36,553 nucleotides of DNA from Actinomycetes bacterium (GTDB lineage: Bacteria; Actinomycetota; Acidimicrobiia; Acidimicrobiales; Ilumatobacteraceae): assembly GCA_025351965.1 (NCBI GenBank), contig JANXUX010000274.1, positions 1-36,553 on the forward strand, written 5' to 3'. The notes beneath the pieces were generated by a model. It made no database searches. It saw only the letters and a list, made by a program, of their open reading frames with translations, and had not been told where the DNA came from. The translations under genes and the position numbers were made by a program. Positions 9,091-36,553 of this stretch are shown here, in pieces. How positions within the stretch are numbered: the stretch's first letter is position 1; the number at the start of each line of letters is the position of its first letter.

Positions 9091-9167
9091 TGGCGCCCCC
9101 GGCAGGATTCGAACCTGCGACCGTCGGATTAGAAGTCCGGTGCTCTATCCAGCTGAGCTACAAGGGC
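9091..9167 (-). tRNA. tRNA-Arg (anticodon TCT), CCA encoded
   Basis: Reverse complement GCCCTTGTAGCTCAGCTGGATAGAGCACCGGACTTCTAATCCGACGGTCGCAGGTTCGAATCCTGCCGGGGGCGCCA; cloverleaf with GTTCGAATC T-loop and CTTCTAA anticodon loop. Confidence 0.95.
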
Positions 9168-22924: not shown

Positions 22925-24064
22925 CTACTCGCCGGCGACGGGGACGGGCTCGGCATCCGGCGAGAGCTCGAAGGAGGTGTACTCCTCACCCGTGTCGGCC
23001 CAGTCCTCGAACTGGATGACGCCCATGTCCTCGAAGCGGTGACGCAGCCACTTGTCGTTGCGCTCGAGCAGACCGAGCTTCTTGCAGTTCGGCACGATCT
23101 TGCTGAACAGCATCGACTGGAAGACCTCACGCGTCGGGTCGTTGATCACGAGCGGCATGATGTCGCGCATGTTGACGCCCATGCGCTCCCAGACCTCTTG
23201 CTGCATGAAGCGGTCGCGCATCCGCACGGCGGCCTCGAACGCAAACTCCTGGCGGTCCTTCATCTCGGCGTCGGTCATGCCGTCGTAGACCTCTTTGAGC
23301 GAGAGCACGCCGAAGGCGACGTGACGGGCCTCGTCGCTCATCACATAGCGGAGGAGCTGCTTGAGCAGCGGCTCCTGGGTGATCTGGTGGAGGAATCCGA
23401 ACGCCGCAAGCGCGAGGCCCTCGACCATCACCTGCATCCCGAGGTACGTCATGTCCCACCGGCTGTCGTTGATGATGTCGTCGAGCAGGAGGCGGAGGTG
23501 CGCGTTGACCTGGTAGCTGCCACCGAGCTTCTCGTGCAGGTAGCGACCGAAGACTTCGACGTGGCGGGCCTCGTCGACGACCTGCGTGCTCGCGTACAGC
23601 TTGGCGTCGTACCACGGCACGGTCTCGACGATCTTGGCCGTACAGATGAGTGCGCCCTGCTCGCCGTGGAGGAACTGGCTGAGCTGCCAGTTACGACCCT
23701 CGATGCCGAAGTTCAGCCACTCCTTCTCGCCCCACTTCTGCACCGGGGTGCCGATGAAGGTGTTGACGTCGAGACCGCTTCCGAGGGTCTCCTGGTCCTG
23801 CTTGACGACCTTCTCGATGTCGACCTCGGTGTTCCAGGGCAGGTCGGTGGTGCCGTTCCACTGACCGGTCTTGGCCTTCTCGTACAGCTTGCGCAGCGGC
23901 GGCCGGGCCAGCGAGTAGTCCCAGGTGAAGATCGAGTCGGCGTTGTTCTTGACGACGTGCTCGACCTCGTTCGGGTCCGTCGTCGGGACGGCAAGAATCG
24001 CGTCGATGTCGTTGATCTCGCCACGACCGAGGATGGTCTGGTTGTCGTTGTGGACGATGGTCAT
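22925..24064 (-). CDS. Ferritin-like diiron-carboxylate protein (probable oxygenase/oxidase)
   Basis: SQFLHGEQGALICTAKIVE...VVDEARHVEVF...MVEGLALAAFGFLHQ...MSDEARHVAFGV: two E/DExRH diiron ligand sets. Confidence 0.88.
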   Translation of the reverse strand: MTIVHNDNQTILGRGEINDIDAILAVPTTDPNEVEHVVKNNADSIFTWDYSLARPPLRKLYEKAKTGQWNGTTDLPWNTEVDIEKVVKQDQETLGSGLDVNTFIGTPVQKWGEKEWLNFGIEGRNWQLSQFLHGEQGALICTAKIVETVPWYDAKLYASTQVVDEARHVEVFGRYLHEKLGGSYQVNAHLRLLLDDIINDSRWDMTYLGMQVMVEGLALAAFGFLHQITQEPLLKQLLRYVMSDEARHVAFGVLSLKEVYDGMTDAEMKDRQEFAFEAAVRMRDRFMQQEVWERMGVNMRDIMPLVINDPTREVFQSMLFSKIVPNCKKLGLLERNDKWLRHRFEDMGVIQFEDWADTGEEYTSFELSPDAEPVPVAGE

Positions 24065-28109: not shown

Positions 28110-29075
28110 TCACTTACGCCCGCTGGTGACCCCGCAGACCACATCGCGATGGATGCACGCGTCGATCTCGCTACGCAGCTTGGCCGGATCCCATGCGTTG
28201 AAGAAGTCGGCGTGACCGGTGGTGATCGGTCCGCTGGCGAGCTGCAGCCCGCTCGGATCCCCGCTGAACGCATAGACCACGGAGAACTGCAGCTGCGGCA
28301 CCGGCACCGGATGGGTGGACGGGCACGTCCCACCGCTGCTGTAGGCGACGTGGCTGTGGTGATCGGCGCTGTCGAGGTTGGTGCCGTCCCAGCAGTCCGG
28401 AAACGTCACCAGCATCCGCATCGGCCGATGGACCGGGCACGTCGGCGGCAGGGCATCACGCGCGATCCCGGTGCCACATGTCCAGGCAACGACGGCCGTG
28501 GACTGCACCCCCTGCGCGCCGGCGTCACCCGCGATCATCTTCAGGCCCGGCGGATACGGCTGCACCGTGGTGGGATCGACACCTGCGCCCGGGCGATAGT
28601 AGGCAACGCTCTTCGACGGCGTCAGCATCGTCTCGCCGTCGAACAGCGCCGGCGCCCAGTACGACGCTCGGTCGAGGCGTTGATCACACAGCGATGTACC
28701 GGCCTCGAGCGACTCGAGCGTGGATGCGGCATTGGTGCTGTCGTTGCCGAAGAAGACATGCATGTGCGAGGAACCCGGCCGGCCGGGGAAGACGATCGGA
28801 TCGTCCGCGAGGGCATGGCTGTACGGGCACTCGACGAGGAACTGCGGCACGCGTCCCTGCGCGCCGGCGACCGGTGCGTCGGGCGCACCGGCGCCCGACA
28901 TCTCGGGCATCGACATCTCCGGCATCGACATCTCTGGCATCGACGTTCCCGGCATCGACAGGTCGCCCGTGTCGTGGCTCTGCTGGGAGTTCGCGTCGCT
29001 CGCGCAGCCGGTGAGCGCTGACACTGCCACCAGCAGTGCAGGCGCCAACCACCGCGCCGCAACCCGACCGATCAC
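28110..29075 (-). CDS. DUF1996 domain lipoprotein with Met-rich (SMPEM)n segment
   Basis: ALLVAVSALTGCASD lipobox; DLSMPGTSMPEMSMPEMSMPEMSGAG; FLVECPYSHALADDPIVFPGRPGSSHMHVFFGN, FPDCWDGTNLDSADHHSHVAYSSGGTCPSTHPVPVPQL. Confidence 0.88.
   Translation of the reverse strand: MIGRVAARWLAPALLVAVSALTGCASDANSQQSHDTGDLSMPGTSMPEMSMPEMSMPEMSGAGAPDAPVAGAQGRVPQFLVECPYSHALADDPIVFPGRPGSSHMHVFFGNDSTNAASTLESLEAGTSLCDQRLDRASYWAPALFDGETMLTPSKSVAYYRPGAGVDPTTVQPYPPGLKMIAGDAGAQGVQSTAVVAWTCGTGIARDALPPTCPVHRPMRMLVTFPDCWDGTNLDSADHHSHVAYSSGGTCPSTHPVPVPQLQFSVVYAFSGDPSGLQLASGPITTGHADFFNAWDPAKLRSEIDACIHRDVVCGVTSGRK
28897..28956. repeat. Four 15-bp tandem repeats encoding Met-rich pentapeptides
   Basis: GACATCTCGGGCATC, GACATCTCCGGCATC, GACATCTCTGGCATC, GACGTTCCCGGCATC. 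Confidence 0.88.
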
Positions 29076-30580
29076 GACCCGGGTTTGGTCGGGACCGTGA
29101 TCGAGGCCGTGTCGACGGCCGCCGGCACGTCGGTGGCCGGATGCGCAGGCGCCGTCGCGGCGTCCGGCACGTTGTCCTGTGCCGGCGGTTCGGGCGACGA
29201 CGTCGTGTAGTCCTGCGACGGCGGATGGGTCTCGCCCAACCAGCCGATGACGTTCAACACACCCGCAGTCCAGTCGGTCGCGGTGGGCTTGGCGCCATCG
29301 CACGGAGCCAGGGCTTCCAGCTGCAACGGTGCTGACGTCGTGAAGGAGTTGCCGCAGAAGGAGTTGCCGAGCGTCGCCAGATCCGTGCCTGCCGAGTCGA
29401 CCGCGATGTCGGCGACCCGGTTGTCGGTGAGCACGTTGTCCTTGACGACGTTCTCGTGGGAGTCCCAGAGGACCGCATCAGGGACCGACGCTGGGTCCGG
29501 CAGCGGGTCGTTGACGGTGTCAGCGCACGGACGGCTCCAGCTGTCGCGCGTCGGCTGGTTGTCGTTGGGATCCTGTTCGAGGTACGGCACCAGCCCGACG
29601 CCGGTCTTGTCGTGGTCGTAGACGAGGTTGCGTTCGATGTCGTTGCCGACTCCGCCCGCGCTGAGGATGCCGTTACCCATCGCCAACAGCGCGACGTCGA
29701 TCGCAGGCGTATCCGGCTGGTTGTTCGAGTACACGGTGTTACCGATGATGGTGGTCGAGCGCTCTGGATAGCAGAGCTCGTAGCTCCCGCTGTTGGGCAC
29801 GACGCCGGCCCGGTTGAACCGGAAAATCGAGTTGATGATGTAGAGGTCGCCGCCGGAGTTGGTGCCGGAGTAGCCGAGGCCGTTGTACTCCGACACGACG
29901 TGGTCGATCACTGCATCGCAGGGGTAGCAGCCGCCGATGTAGAAACCGGCGTCCGGGCTGCCGCCGCCGTAGCTGTGGTCGAGCTGACCTTCGTACGAGA
30001 GGAACGCATAGACGCCGTAGTCGCCGTTGCGGAACGCAGTCAGGTACGACCCTCGGTACCCCGTGACGCCGGTCCAGAAGAAGCCGTTCTTGGTGTAGTT
30101 GCGCGCCGTCAGGTTCTCGATCGCGACGCCGTTGGCGCCGACGACGCGGATGCCGTTGTCGAGTGCGAACTGACCGTCGAGGACCGTCGCGTTGCGGTCG
30201 ATGCCGCGGATCGTGAGGTTCTCCGTCTCCACCGTCACGGCCTCGTGGTACGTGCCCGGCTGGATGAGCACGAGATCGCCTGGCTTGGCCGCGTCGACCG
30301 CTGCCTGGATGGTCGGTTGATCGTCGGGCACATTGATCGTCGCGCCATCGCCAGACGGTGCGCTCGGCGATGTCGGGTCACTCGGCTGCACCGTCGACGG
30401 CGCATCGGTGGTGTTCGTCCCGCTCGACCCGACCGGTGCCGTCGTCACACCGTTCGACCCAGCGGTCGTCGCGGTGGGAGACGTCGACGGCACGTTCGTA
30501 CCCGACGAACTGCTGTCGCTGCTGCAGCCAGCCACCGACAGCAACGCTGCAGCCACGAAGAAGCGTCCGAACCTGTTCAC
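29072..30580 (-). CDS. Right-handed parallel beta-helix (NosD-like) lipoprotein
   Basis: FFVAAALLSVAGCSSDSS lipobox; INVPDDQPTIQAAVDAAKPGDLVLIQPGTYHEAVTVETENLTIRGIDRNATVLDG followed by beta-helix-type repeats. Confidence 0.88.
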   Translation of the reverse strand: MNRFGRFFVAAALLSVAGCSSDSSSSGTNVPSTSPTATTAGSNGVTTAPVGSSGTNTTDAPSTVQPSDPTSPSAPSGDGATINVPDDQPTIQAAVDAAKPGDLVLIQPGTYHEAVTVETENLTIRGIDRNATVLDGQFALDNGIRVVGANGVAIENLTARNYTKNGFFWTGVTGYRGSYLTAFRNGDYGVYAFLSYEGQLDHSYGGGSPDAGFYIGGCYPCDAVIDHVVSEYNGLGYSGTNSGGDLYIINSIFRFNRAGVVPNSGSYELCYPERSTTIIGNTVYSNNQPDTPAIDVALLAMGNGILSAGGVGNDIERNLVYDHDKTGVGLVPYLEQDPNDNQPTRDSWSRPCADTVNDPLPDPASVPDAVLWDSHENVVKDNVLTDNRVADIAVDSAGTDLATLGNSFCGNSFTTSAPLQLEALAPCDGAKPTATDWTAGVLNVIGWLGETHPPSQDYTTSSPEPPAQDNVPDAATAPAHPATDVPAAVDTASITVPTKPGS

Positions 30581-30617
30581 GTGTCCCCCTTGGACCCCAT
30601 TGGCAGTGCGCCCGGTG

Positions 30618-31100
30618 TCAGCCGCTGACCGTAATGGTTCCGACCATGCCTTTCTGATTCGTACCGTGGATCGAGCAGAAGTACGCATACACGCCGGGCG
30701 TGGTGAACACGTAGCGATACACGTCGCCCGGATGGAATCCCGCGATCTGCACACCCCAGTCGTTGCCGGTCCGGGGGAGGACATTGTGGTCGTTCTTGCC
30801 CTTGTTCGTGAACACCACCGTGTCGCCGACCGCGGCGGTGGTGTCCTGGGCCCGGAAGTTGTTGTCGATGGCGATCACGTTCACCGTCACTCCGGTCGTG
30901 GTGACCATCGGCGCGTTGGTGACGGCCACAACGACCGACCCAGCACCGTCACCACCGACCGTCGCTGGTGCGCTCGCCACCGGTGCGTCACTGCCGTCGG
31001 GCGCACAGCCCGTCAGCCCGGCGAGGGCGACGATCGCCACGACCGACGCCGCAACCGTGAACCTGTTACCGGCGCGCGCCAGTATCGATGTTGTTCCCAT
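30618..31100 (-). CDS. Cupredoxin (plastocyanin/azurin-like) lipoprotein
   Basis: IVALAGLTGCAPDG lipobox; copper ligands HNVLP...YAYFCSIHGTNQKGM; SD GGGGGAG 7 nt before the ATG at 31100. Confidence 0.9.
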   Translation of the reverse strand: MGTTSILARAGNRFTVAASVVAIVALAGLTGCAPDGSDAPVASAPATVGGDGAGSVVVAVTNAPMVTTTGVTVNVIAIDNNFRAQDTTAAVGDTVVFTNKGKNDHNVLPRTGNDWGVQIAGFHPGDVYRYVFTTPGVYAYFCSIHGTNQKGMVGTITVSG

Positions 31101-31130
31101 GTGCATGCTCCCCCGGATGTCCGGGACGGA

Positions 31131-32759
31131 TCATTGTCCCGGCAGCACGTAGTCGGCGAACTGGTCGCGCAGTGTCTTCTTGCTGAACTTGCCGACGCTG
31201 GTCTTGGGGACCTCGTCGATGAACACGACGTCGTCGGGGATCTGCCATTTGGCGAGGTGCGGCGAGATGAAGTCGATCACCTCGGCCTTGGTCATGGTCT
31301 CGCCCTCCTGCAGCACCACACAGGCCAGCGGACGCTCACTCCAGCGGATGTGGGTGACCCCGATGACGGCGGCCTCCTTGATCTTGGGATGGGCCATCAG
31401 CTCGTTCTCGATCTCGACCGAGCTGATCCACTCGCCGCCGCTCTTGATCAGGTCCTTGGTGCGGTCGACGAGGCGGATCCGGCCTGTCGGGTCCATCACC
31501 GCGACGTCGCCCGTGCGCAACCAACCGTCGGCAGTGAAGCTCTCGCCCGATCGTGGGTCGTTGTAGTAGCTGGCGGCAATCCACGAACCGCGGCACTGCA
31601 GCTCACCGCTCGTCTCACCGTCGCGAGCAACGCTGGTCGTGGTGTCCGGCTCGACGATGCGGCAGTCGACGCCGAACGCGATGAGTCCGACCGAGGTGCG
31701 CAGTTCGGCCTGCTCCTCCTGCGGCAGCAAGTGCTCGGCGGCAGTGAGCTGACCGACGGAGGCGACGGGGCTGGTCTCGGTCATCCCCCATGCCTGCAGG
31801 ATCGGCAGACCGGTCGCCTTGCGGTAGGCCTCGCTCAACGCCTTCGGCACGGCGGAGCCACCGCACGGGATGGCACGCAGATGGCTGGTGTCGCGACCCT
31901 TGAGTTCGGGTAGAACGGCCATCCAGATCGTCGGAACACCCGCTGCGACCGTCACGTGCTCGTTGACGATCAGGTCGGCGATGGCCTTGCCGGACAGGTC
32001 CGGCCCAGGCATCACGAGGGCGGCACCCGTGGCGACCGCAGCGTGGGCGAGACCCCACGAGTTGGCGTGGAACATCGGCACGACGGGCAGGATGATGTCG
32101 CTCTCGCGGGCCCCCAGCGAGTCGGCGGTCATCACCCCGAACGTGTGCATGAAGGTGCTGCGATGCGAATACACGACGCCCTTCGGATTCCCGGTCGTGC
32201 CGCTCGTGTAACACATGCTCGCAGCCGTGTTCTCGGGGACAACGGTCCACGCGACGGGATCGGCGGCGGCGAGCAGCTCCTCGTAGTCGTGGGTCTCGAT
32301 GCCGGCGAGATCGGTCGGGACGTCACCCCTGCCGTCGTCCATGATCACGAGGTGTTTGACGGTCTGGAAGGTCTTCAGCAACGGCTGGAGCAGACCGAGG
32401 AGGCTGCGGTCGACGAAGATCACCTCGTCCTCGGCATGGTTGACGATGTAGGTCAGCTGCTCGGGGAAGAGGCGGATGTTGAGCGTGTGCAGCACGCGCC
32501 CGCTGCACGGCGCGGCGAAGTAGAGCTCGAGGTGGCGGGCCGTGTTCCAGGCGAACGTCCCGACCCGACCCTCGGCCGAGATGCCCAACCGATCGAGCAC
32601 TCCCCCGAGCTGACGGGTCCGCCGCGCCCAGGTCGCATAGTCCGTCCGCTCCAGCCCGACGGGCGTCGAGGTCGTGATCGTCTTGTCCGAGTGGTACTTC
32701 TCGGCGCGCTCGAACAGATGGATGATGGACAACGGTGCGTCCTGCATCAGACCCTGCAT
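31131..32759 (-). CDS. AMP-binding long-chain fatty acid--CoA ligase
   Basis: MCYTSGTTGNPKGVVYSHRS AMP-binding motif; GWLRTGDVAVMDPTGRIRLVDRTKDLIKSGGEWISSVEIE; GKFSKKTLRDQF. Confidence 0.95.
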   Translation of the reverse strand: MQGLMQDAPLSIIHLFERAEKYHSDKTITTSTPVGLERTDYATWARRTRQLGGVLDRLGISAEGRVGTFAWNTARHLELYFAAPCSGRVLHTLNIRLFPEQLTYIVNHAEDEVIFVDRSLLGLLQPLLKTFQTVKHLVIMDDGRGDVPTDLAGIETHDYEELLAAADPVAWTVVPENTAASMCYTSGTTGNPKGVVYSHRSTFMHTFGVMTADSLGARESDIILPVVPMFHANSWGLAHAAVATGAALVMPGPDLSGKAIADLIVNEHVTVAAGVPTIWMAVLPELKGRDTSHLRAIPCGGSAVPKALSEAYRKATGLPILQAWGMTETSPVASVGQLTAAEHLLPQEEQAELRTSVGLIAFGVDCRIVEPDTTTSVARDGETSGELQCRGSWIAASYYNDPRSGESFTADGWLRTGDVAVMDPTGRIRLVDRTKDLIKSGGEWISSVEIENELMAHPKIKEAAVIGVTHIRWSERPLACVVLQEGETMTKAEVIDFISPHLAKWQIPDDVVFIDEVPKTSVGKFSKKTLRDQFADYVLPGQ

Positions 32760-32821
32760 GGTGATCCCCTCAGTCACAGGCCGAAGCCCCCTACCAACGC
32801 ACCGTACGTTACTGTCGACGA

Positions 32822-34075: not shown

Positions 34076-36367
34076 TCATGTCGTCCAGACCCCGAAGAGG
34101 TCGACGACCACGTCGACAGCTTCCGACGCGTAGACACACGCGTAGCCGCGGGACTTGGTCAACAGTGCCGAGTTGGCGCTGTCGACCCCCGCCACGAAGT
34201 TCACGTTCGACGTACCGGGCCAAGGATCGGTCAGACACGGATAGCCGGTCAGGTAGCCCGACCCGACGGCGCCCGTCGCAGTCAGGTTGACCTGAGCGGC
34301 CACGACCGAGCCCATCGCCAGTACGTAGGCCAGGTTCGACTGGCTGCGCGGCTTGTCCTGGACCCGCGTGTCGAGCAGGCGCTGCGGGCTCAGTGCTGCG
34401 TATCGGGCGGCTGCGCCCGGCTGGTACTCGGCGAGGAGGTCGACGACGAGGTCGGTCTCCTGCGAGGTGTACAGGCACACCGCTCCCCCGGCGCCGACAC
34501 GCACGTTGACCAGGTTGGGTTGGGTGACCCCAGGCTCCGGGTTGAGGTTCGACACGTTCGGCCGGTCCGTTCCGCACGGCCACGCAGTGACGAACCCTGC
34601 GGCCCGAGGTGCCACGGCGGTGATGTTGAGCGAGACGGCGGTCGACCTCGAGCCGGCGGCGACGACGGGGATCTGGACCTGCTGGACGGCGGCCAATCGC
34701 GCGCTGCCGCCGACGCCGGTGCGGGTGTCGACCAACCGGCGTGACGCGACGGGCTGCAGGCCGACGTTCGAGCCGGCTGTCAGCCAGCCGTTGAGGTCGA
34801 CGACGACGTCGACTGCGGTCGACGAGCGCAAGCACAGCGTGCCGTCGCCGATCGGAACGATGACGGCGTTGGTCTGCGCGGTCCCGGCTACCTGGTTCAC
34901 GTTCGACGTGGTGGGCTCGGCGATCGAGCACGGAAAGACCCGAACGTATCCATCGAGCGATGCGCCGACAGCAGTGACGTTCAGCGCGACTGCAGTCGCG
35001 TCTGCGGGGACCCCACCGGGCACCACGCTGGCAGAGCGGAGGTCGAGGACCTGTCGAGCACCGGCGTCGAAGCGACGCATCGGCTGGCCGGCGATCCGCG
35101 TGTCGACGATGCGCACCGGATCGATGGCGGCGAAGCCTGATGTCGGGCGGGGGGTGGCGAACGCCGCAGGACTGGCAGCGGACCCGGCCGCGACCGCAGC
35201 CGGAACGTCGACGGTGTAGAAACTCGGACGGTACAGCGCCCCGTTGGCCAGCCAGAGCGGGTAGTCGCCGCCGTTGGAAAGGCTGATCGTCATCCGCCCG
35301 GTCGAGTCCAGCCAGGGCAGCAGCGACGCGCCGTAGCTGCCACAGCCGCTCGCGCATTTCCGGTCGCGGAACGTGTCGATCGTCTGGACCTTGGTCCACG
35401 GGCCCTGCGGATCCTTGGCGACGTCGACGGTCATCGCTGTGCCCCACCAGTCGTCGAGCTTGGTGACCGAGACCCACACGTCACCGAACCATTGCACGCT
35501 CATCGCATTCGCATACCCGCGAGTCAGCACGGGCACTGCTGCTCGGGCATCGCCGGTCCATCCGGTGCCGTTCCAGTACTCCGGCGCGACATCGAAGTGG
35601 CCGAGCGGGACGCGGGCGACGTAGCTGCTCGGCATGCACGAGCCGTCGAACTGACCCGGACCGGCCACGGCGTTGGCGAACTGGCGGTAACAGTGGCCGT
35701 AGAGGTAGCTGTACCGATCGTTGGACACGACGGACCAGCCGTAGAGCTGGCGGGTCGCCCCGGACGCCGGTGCCGGAGCGAACGACAACTGCGCCAGGGT
35801 GACCGGATCGAGGATCGCCAGCCACGTTCTGACCGGCAGCGCACCGGGGCCGGCGCCGTTGCCGGCCGGGTTGGACATCTCCGCCATGAAAATCCAGAGG
35901 TTGCCGTCGAAGCCGATCTCGCCGTCGAGCGGCCAGAACCAGCGCGCACTGTCGATGGTCTGGTCATCGCCGATGAAGTCGCGGCCCTTCGTGCCGAGCA
36001 CCGTGAAGCAGCCGCCCGCCTCGATCAGTCCGGAGTTGTGTGCGGCGTTGTTCGGCGGGTTGTTGAGGTCGTCGTCGTTGCTGAAGTAGATGTCCTGGAA
36101 CAGCCAGAGGATGCGACCATCGGGCAACGGGTAGGCGTGCTGGTAGTCGGCCCCGCCGAAGCCTTCGGCGGTCGGTACTGCGCCGAGGCCGGGCCGGGAG
36201 AACACCGAGTTGAGCTGCGCAGCATCGAGGGTGGTTCCTGCGGCGCAGGCGGCTTCGGCGGCGGGGACGGAGGACGCGTCCGCGCTCACCACGACGATGC
36301 CGGCGCACAGGGCGACGGCAACGATCATCGACGCGAGGCGTCGGTGGATCCGGGCCAGAACCGTCAC
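34076..36367 (-). CDS. Large secreted protein: beta-propeller-like N-terminal half plus three tandem VDTR...VVVDL repeats
   Basis: Signal peptide MTVLARIHRRLASMIVAVALCAGIVVVSADA; repeat hallmarks RIVDTR...VALNVTAVGA...VVVDLNGW; RLVDTR...VSLNITAVAP...LVVDLLAEY; RLLDTR...VNLTATGA...VVVDLFGVW. Confidence 0.8.
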   Translation of the reverse strand: MTVLARIHRRLASMIVAVALCAGIVVVSADASSVPAAEAACAAGTTLDAAQLNSVFSRPGLGAVPTAEGFGGADYQHAYPLPDGRILWLFQDIYFSNDDDLNNPPNNAAHNSGLIEAGGCFTVLGTKGRDFIGDDQTIDSARWFWPLDGEIGFDGNLWIFMAEMSNPAGNGAGPGALPVRTWLAILDPVTLAQLSFAPAPASGATRQLYGWSVVSNDRYSYLYGHCYRQFANAVAGPGQFDGSCMPSSYVARVPLGHFDVAPEYWNGTGWTGDARAAVPVLTRGYANAMSVQWFGDVWVSVTKLDDWWGTAMTVDVAKDPQGPWTKVQTIDTFRDRKCASGCGSYGASLLPWLDSTGRMTISLSNGGDYPLWLANGALYRPSFYTVDVPAAVAAGSAASPAAFATPRPTSGFAAIDPVRIVDTRIAGQPMRRFDAGARQVLDLRSASVVPGGVPADATAVALNVTAVGASLDGYVRVFPCSIAEPTTSNVNQVAGTAQTNAVIVPIGDGTLCLRSSTAVDVVVDLNGWLTAGSNVGLQPVASRRLVDTRTGVGGSARLAAVQQVQIPVVAAGSRSTAVSLNITAVAPRAAGFVTAWPCGTDRPNVSNLNPEPGVTQPNLVNVRVGAGGAVCLYTSQETDLVVDLLAEYQPGAAARYAALSPQRLLDTRVQDKPRSQSNLAYVLAMGSVVAAQVNLTATGAVGSGYLTGYPCLTDPWPGTSNVNFVAGVDSANSALLTKSRGYACVYASEAVDVVVDLFGVWTT

Positions 36368-36553
36368 AGATCCATGTAGGCGTCGAGTCCGACCGTGAGC
36401 CCCGCAACCGACCCGACGCGCTTGCACGCAAGGAGGATGCCGGGCATGTAACTGGAGTTGTCGTAACTGTCCTGGCGGATCGTGAGGCTCTGACCCGACG
36501 TGCCGAGGATGACTTCCTGATGCGCTTGCAGACCGCGCAGGCGCACGGAGTGG
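36364..36553 (-). CDS. dapB: 4-hydroxy-tetrahydrodipicolinate reductase, C-terminal end (truncated by window edge)
   Basis: HSVRLRGLQAHQEVILGTSGQSLTIRQDSYDNSSYMPGILLACKRVGSVAGLTVGLDAYMDL* matches the DapB C-terminus. Confidence 0.85.
   Translation of the reverse strand, partial: HSVRLRGLQAHQEVILGTSGQSLTIRQDSYDNSSYMPGILLACKRVGSVAGLTVGLDAYMDL

Follow-up and report, generated by a model that had tools for sequence, protein, structure and literature searches.

Three adjacent genes for exported lipoproteins raise the question of what a type-1 copper protein, a parallel beta-helix protein and a member of DUF1996, a domain that to our knowledge has no known biochemical function, might do together on the surface of an actinomycete cell. 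The genes lie on the minus strand of the window (the whole stretch of 36,553 nucleotides analysed here) and are listed below in the direction of transcription, together with the gene that precedes them.

31131..32777, minus strand: AMP-binding enzyme resembling acyl-CoA synthetases; its gene ends 24 bp ahead of the cupredoxin gene
30618..31106, minus strand: cupredoxin lipoprotein, 162 aa; lipobox LTGC; type-1 copper ligands H107, C144, H147 and M154
29072..30580, minus strand: right-handed parallel beta-helix lipoprotein, 502 aa; lipobox VAGC; invariant CxxC (C218, C221)
28110..29075, minus strand: DUF1996 lipoprotein, 321 aa; lipobox LTGC; conserved HxH (H104, H106), H242 and HxD (H288, D290)
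28896..28958, minus strand: residues 40-60 of the DUF1996 protein, the Met-rich tail SMPGTSMPEMSMPEMSMPEMS, after the lipobox and ahead of the domain

The preliminary description of this DNA had presented the trio as consecutive minus-strand lipoprotein genes, and their coordinates, the three lipoboxes, the 37-bp gap between the cupredoxin and beta-helix genes and the 4-bp overlap (GTGA) between the beta-helix and DUF1996 genes were all confirmed. The acyl-CoA synthetase-like gene is possibly carried on the same transcript; it is found immediately upstream of the cupredoxin gene in 13 fetched loci, is not there in the remaining loci and is outside the conserved cassette. The first product of the trio matches the cupredoxin family in Pfam (PF00127, 28.2 bits against a cut-off of 21.2) and, further, plastocyanin 1bxu, and the ligands of the type-1 copper site proposed for it are conserved among 35 homologues, in which H107, C144 and H147 are invariant and M154 is at least 90% conserved. 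It shares export and the H, C, H and M ligands with plastocyanin- and azurin-type cupredoxins, but differs from them in being lipid-anchored and in the longer spacing ahead of the Met ligand (H147 to M154). In the cupredoxins of L058 and L061, this Met is replaced by Gln (GQLG), like in stellacyanin-like sites. The assignment of the third product to DUF1996 likewise stands, with a full-length match to PF09362 (profile 1-237; 155.2 bits against a cut-off of 27). In NCBIfam, all matches of the trio are sub-threshold, and the cupredoxin falls under every equivalog cut-off.

To determine how far the arrangement extends, genome contigs were scanned with the DUF1996 protein, which yielded 80 loci. 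The beta-helix and DUF1996 genes adjoin in 61 distinct loci, on the same strand in all of them, and a cupredoxin gene lies near the pair in 53 of the 61 (46 co-directional, 7 opposite), with the caveat that these loci were partly selected by DUF1996 similarity. In L031-L070, almost all of which are recorded as Acidimicrobiia, the beta-helix and DUF1996 genes occur together and the cupredoxin gene is usually ahead of both. The arrangement is far above chance and recurs in dozens of genomes; the co-occurrence check suggested in the preliminary description thus places the cassette far beyond close relatives of the window, and the three-gene unit is real and widespread. A search of the open-access literature returned no description of the cupredoxin, beta-helix and DUF1996 combination. 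A second beta-helix copy is present near the cassette in L051, L064 and L043, directly after the DUF1996 gene in the former two.

Given the partial selection by DUF1996 similarity, a second set was built from the beta-helix alone, comprising 69 distinct members selected by beta-helix alignment search irrespective of their neighbours. Members of the family occur in 109 of the 198 genomes searched within the window's class, and in 65 of 397 in a sample of the phylum. Cupredoxin is fused to or located near 61 of the 69 members (37 fused into one protein, 24 nearby), and three of the eight members without it have short or cut flanks. Among control loci containing DUF1996 without the beta-helix, cupredoxin was found in 2 of 60 (Fisher p = 4e-25, a figure to be read as description because related genomes are not independent). 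Several of the fused proteins have what look like transmembrane segments at their end (PLDc_N match), so that fused and separate forms both appear to be membrane-attached. A quick tree of the beta-helix requires five changes for fusion, three for DUF1996 adjacency and four for oxidase adjacency; since fused members fall in both main groups, it is plausible that the fusion is ancestral, but this tree has no root and only moderate support for its deep branches. In G020 (L142:4183-5774), the cupredoxin and beta-helix genes are separated by genes for a cytochrome b561-type protein and a molybdopterin oxidoreductase (Pfam), a hint of further redox partners. In streamlined ~1-Mb genomes of one genus (L160:3-7503, L211-L214), the fused gene is found a few kb from a Caa3_CtaG gene (Pfam) and, as judged by eye, from cytochrome oxidase subunit-like genes.

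The same set reveals two kinds of neighbour. In 17 of the 69 cases, the beta-helix gene adjoins a gene for a multicopper oxidase with two domains (Cu-oxidase_3 and Cu-oxidase_2), which is often on the same strand and overlaps it or lies only a few bases away; the oxidases of 14 loci form one tight family, and quite different oxidases are encoded at other loci. DUF1996 adjoins the beta-helix gene in 20 of the 69, none of them shared with the 17 oxidase cases, and never occurs together with the fused cupredoxin-beta-helix form. DUF1996 and the oxidase are mutually exclusive, as if they were alternative partners, although the exclusivity may reflect few events because it is phylogenetically clustered. 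The position of the cupredoxin-beta-helix protein beside a two-domain multicopper oxidase in other lineages recalls laccase-like multicopper oxidases that have a cupredoxin partner, whereas the window carries DUF1996 instead and none of its three proteins is an oxidase by sequence. The multicopper oxidases encoded in the window's genome (G000) are related only distantly to the partner oxidase.

DUF1996 proteins are found in both bacteria and fungi. The signature reported for the family (DPI..P, HxH, YW.P, CP and HxD; PMC4738358) is present in the window's protein and varies little or not at all among 65 bacterial homologues (in alignment numbering, D30...P35, H42xH44, Y77 W78 P80, C189 P190 and H226xD228); the HxH, a third His and the HxD are conserved in nearly all members. 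The protein shares the HxH and HxD of the fungal formula, but differs from the characterised fungal vacuolar members in being a bacterial lipoprotein with a Met-rich tail, encoded in a cuproprotein cassette. Its AlphaFold2 model has a mean pLDDT of 93.7; a fold search gave no PDB match below E 0.1, and neither sequence nor fold search produced a solved PDB relative.

The Met-rich tail calls for a broader definition than the one originally given. The preliminary description had singled out the Met repeat itself, which is not conserved among orthologues: SMPEM repeats were found only in the window and a sister species (L031, L009: SMPGISMSDMSMPDM) that is 92% identical, and the exact repeat is young. 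It was therefore rejected as a defining feature in favour of a test for Met/His-rich tails in general. In other cassette members, the same linker is His-rich or mixed (EHHHVHTD, SHVHQHHDD, EHQHMSMP) or has nothing special. When the 30 residues ahead of the domain were considered, with a criterion of at least three His/Met in 12 residues, such tails were detected in 17 of 49 cassette DUF1996 proteins and in 0 of 55 DUF1996 proteins from elsewhere (Fisher p = 5e-7); a few non-cassette DUF1996 proteins have His/Met clusters farther upstream, beyond the tested stretch. None of 47 beta-helix and 38 cupredoxin proteins passed the same test, and at the same loci His and Met make up 7.9% of the DUF1996 linkers, 0.2% of those of the beta-helix proteins and 0.5% of those of the cupredoxins. 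In 19 of the 38 cassette tails analysed, however, no stretch of 12 residues contains more than one His/Met. Given the enrichment in cassette DUF1996 proteins, the Met motif of the window can be regarded as one instance of a tail type resembling metal-binding sequences, and we infer that the tail may bind copper.

A further connection to copper comes from another lineage. In all 20 of 20 Streptomyces/Lentzea loci, the DUF1996 gene is directly followed by a gene for a DUF305 lipoprotein with a conserved HEGHDMPGM stretch, and two more DUF305 neighbours were detected in the phylum-wide set. In Synechocystis, the DUF305 family member CopM is a copper-binding protein that contributes to copper resistance (PMC4335983), and the DUF305 proteins adjoining DUF1996 carry a comparable His/Met-rich, copper-like motif. 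The window's cassette, in contrast, has no DUF305 gene, and the link is one of gene neighbourhood in a different lineage. It should also be noted that most DUF1996 proteins outside the cassette have no copper-gene neighbours, that three fungal DUF1996 deletions are sensitive to several stresses and metals, copper not being among them (PMC4738358), and that fungal DUF1996 is often accompanied by CBM1, CBM6 or WSC domains (PMC7679414); for these reasons, copper is not established for the family as a whole.

Copper redox chemistry is the best reading of the cassette in view of the cupredoxin, the neighbouring oxidases, the Met/His-rich tails and the association with DUF305. We tentatively consider the trio to encode a copper-redox module attached to the outer side of the cell membrane, with a probability that we put just short of even. 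At its core, a type-1 copper protein, the cupredoxin, would work with a beta-helix scaffold, the two being one polypeptide or the products of adjacent genes in most relatives. This core would serve a partner, namely, the multicopper oxidase in other actinobacterial lineages and the DUF1996 lipoprotein in that of the window. The cupredoxin might pass electrons, presumably in this direction, or hand over copper to the DUF1996 protein, the Met/His-rich tail of which would capture copper and the conserved HxH, H and HxD residues of which would form a metal site; the DUF1996 protein, putatively copper-bound, could thereby take the functional place of the oxidase, possibly in a complex with the core. 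Relatives with cupredoxin and beta-helix joined in a single protein next to a copper oxidase suggest a copper-based redox unit at the cell surface that has so far gone undescribed. The shared copper role envisaged in the preliminary description survives insofar as a conserved cassette of exported lipoproteins has independent genomic links to copper (cupredoxin fusion, adjoining multicopper oxidases, the DUF1996-DUF305 association elsewhere and the Met/His-rich tails), and fails with regard to the NosD clue and the conserved Met repeat. In its broadest form, which we regard as unlikely to hold in full, the proposal would be that of an undescribed, phylum-wide actinobacterial surface module of cupredoxin and beta-helix with an exchangeable partner, in which DUF1996 represents a new copper-dependent oxidoreductase replacing the multicopper oxidase. 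The conserved blue-copper partnership and the lineages in which a copper oxidase stands in the position of DUF1996 provide a concrete, testable hypothesis for this domain. Counting against the copper reading, the beta-helix family has no conserved His/Met cluster but only the CxxC, which is 100% conserved in 105 homologues, and a search upstream of the cupredoxin genes for CsoR-like operators with simple, crude patterns gave nothing consistent.

The main rival is a glycan-directed role, whereby the beta-helix protein would bind or modify a polysaccharide of the envelope, DUF1996 would act as an enzyme at the wall, possibly with a metal requirement, and electrons would come from the cupredoxin. 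Such a module is conceivable, if unlikely. The AlphaFold2 model of the beta-helix protein (mean pLDDT 95.2) is closest in the PDB to AlgE4 and PL6 proteins, that is, mannuronan (alginate) epimerases and PL6 lyases; furthermore, several bacterial DUF1996 proteins have N-terminal extensions that, by eye, resemble carbohydrate-binding modules, in line with the domains accompanying fungal DUF1996. However, at a TM of ~0.5 and 14-17% identity, the likeness of the model to these enzymes is that of beta-helices in general, and the invariant residues of the family include no evident lyase-type catalytic set. The window's DUF1996 protein has no carbohydrate-binding module, and a role in glycan metabolism would leave the Met/His tails and the DUF305 neighbours unexplained. 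The two readings can be combined in a redox enzyme acting on envelope glycans.

Rather unlikely, in our estimation, is that the three lipoproteins serve copper tolerance, binding and buffering excess copper outside the membrane without catalysis. The Met/His-rich tails, the DUF305 neighbours in Streptomyces with the CopM precedent and the oxidase neighbours, as in Cu(I) detoxification, would all fit this role. Against it, the genes that recur around the cassette include no recognisable efflux pump, CopC/CopD or copper regulator, many members have no tails, and the cupredoxin-beta-helix protein is kept in ~1-Mb genomes, which better suits a housekeeping role.

It is improbable that the three genes have no function in common and have stayed together only as part of an inherited gene order around dapA/dapB. 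A wider synteny of dapB, a thiol peroxidase, an amino-acid ABC transporter and dapA is indeed common to many cassette loci; however, the trio is retained amid unrelated flanking genes in L055, L056, L059, L060 and L066, which indicates that the trio itself is the conserved unit. Moreover, translational coupling recurs among the cassette loci, and for the cupredoxin and the beta-helix, which are fused in other lineages, this explanation is already largely refuted.

The preliminary description had also likened the beta-helix protein to NosD. The structural part of this comparison is sound, in that beta-helix models do match and the protein, like NosD and TIGR03805 proteins, is an exported right-handed beta-helix, but as a functional clue it fails: the product falls under both NCBIfam cut-offs (42.3 bits against 300 for TIGR04247, over profile positions 1-69 of 377, and 71.2 against the curated 141.5 for TIGR03805, beta_helix_1), exceeds that of PF05048 only marginally (24.9 against 23.6, general beta-helix models scoring alike) and belongs to a family fused to or located beside cupredoxin. 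A NosD-type role, in which the protein would assist copper insertion into a cuproenzyme, N2O reductase for example, is suggested by these weak matches but is very unlikely, and was rejected on family cut-offs, genome content and the fold search, as the top fold matches are sugar-polymer enzymes with NosD not among the 50 matches listed, no NosF/NosY pair was recognised beside the beta-helix gene, and the NosZ propeller and NosL were found in 2 and 1, respectively, of 30 genomes carrying the family. The earlier observation that the window contains no nos structural genes extends to its genome, where searches for the NosZ propeller and NosL gave no match. The cassette provides a setting for a beta-helix family that may be named NosD by automatic annotation and that extends to streamlined genomes of ~1 Mb.

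Elsewhere in the window, the sole Rfam match is a tRNA gene on the minus strand (9094-9167), and a long exported protein with a weak DUF4185 match is encoded at 34076-36427. A diiron AurF-like protein (22925-24064; 27.5 bits, slightly under the cut-off) recurs near the cassette in ~18 loci.
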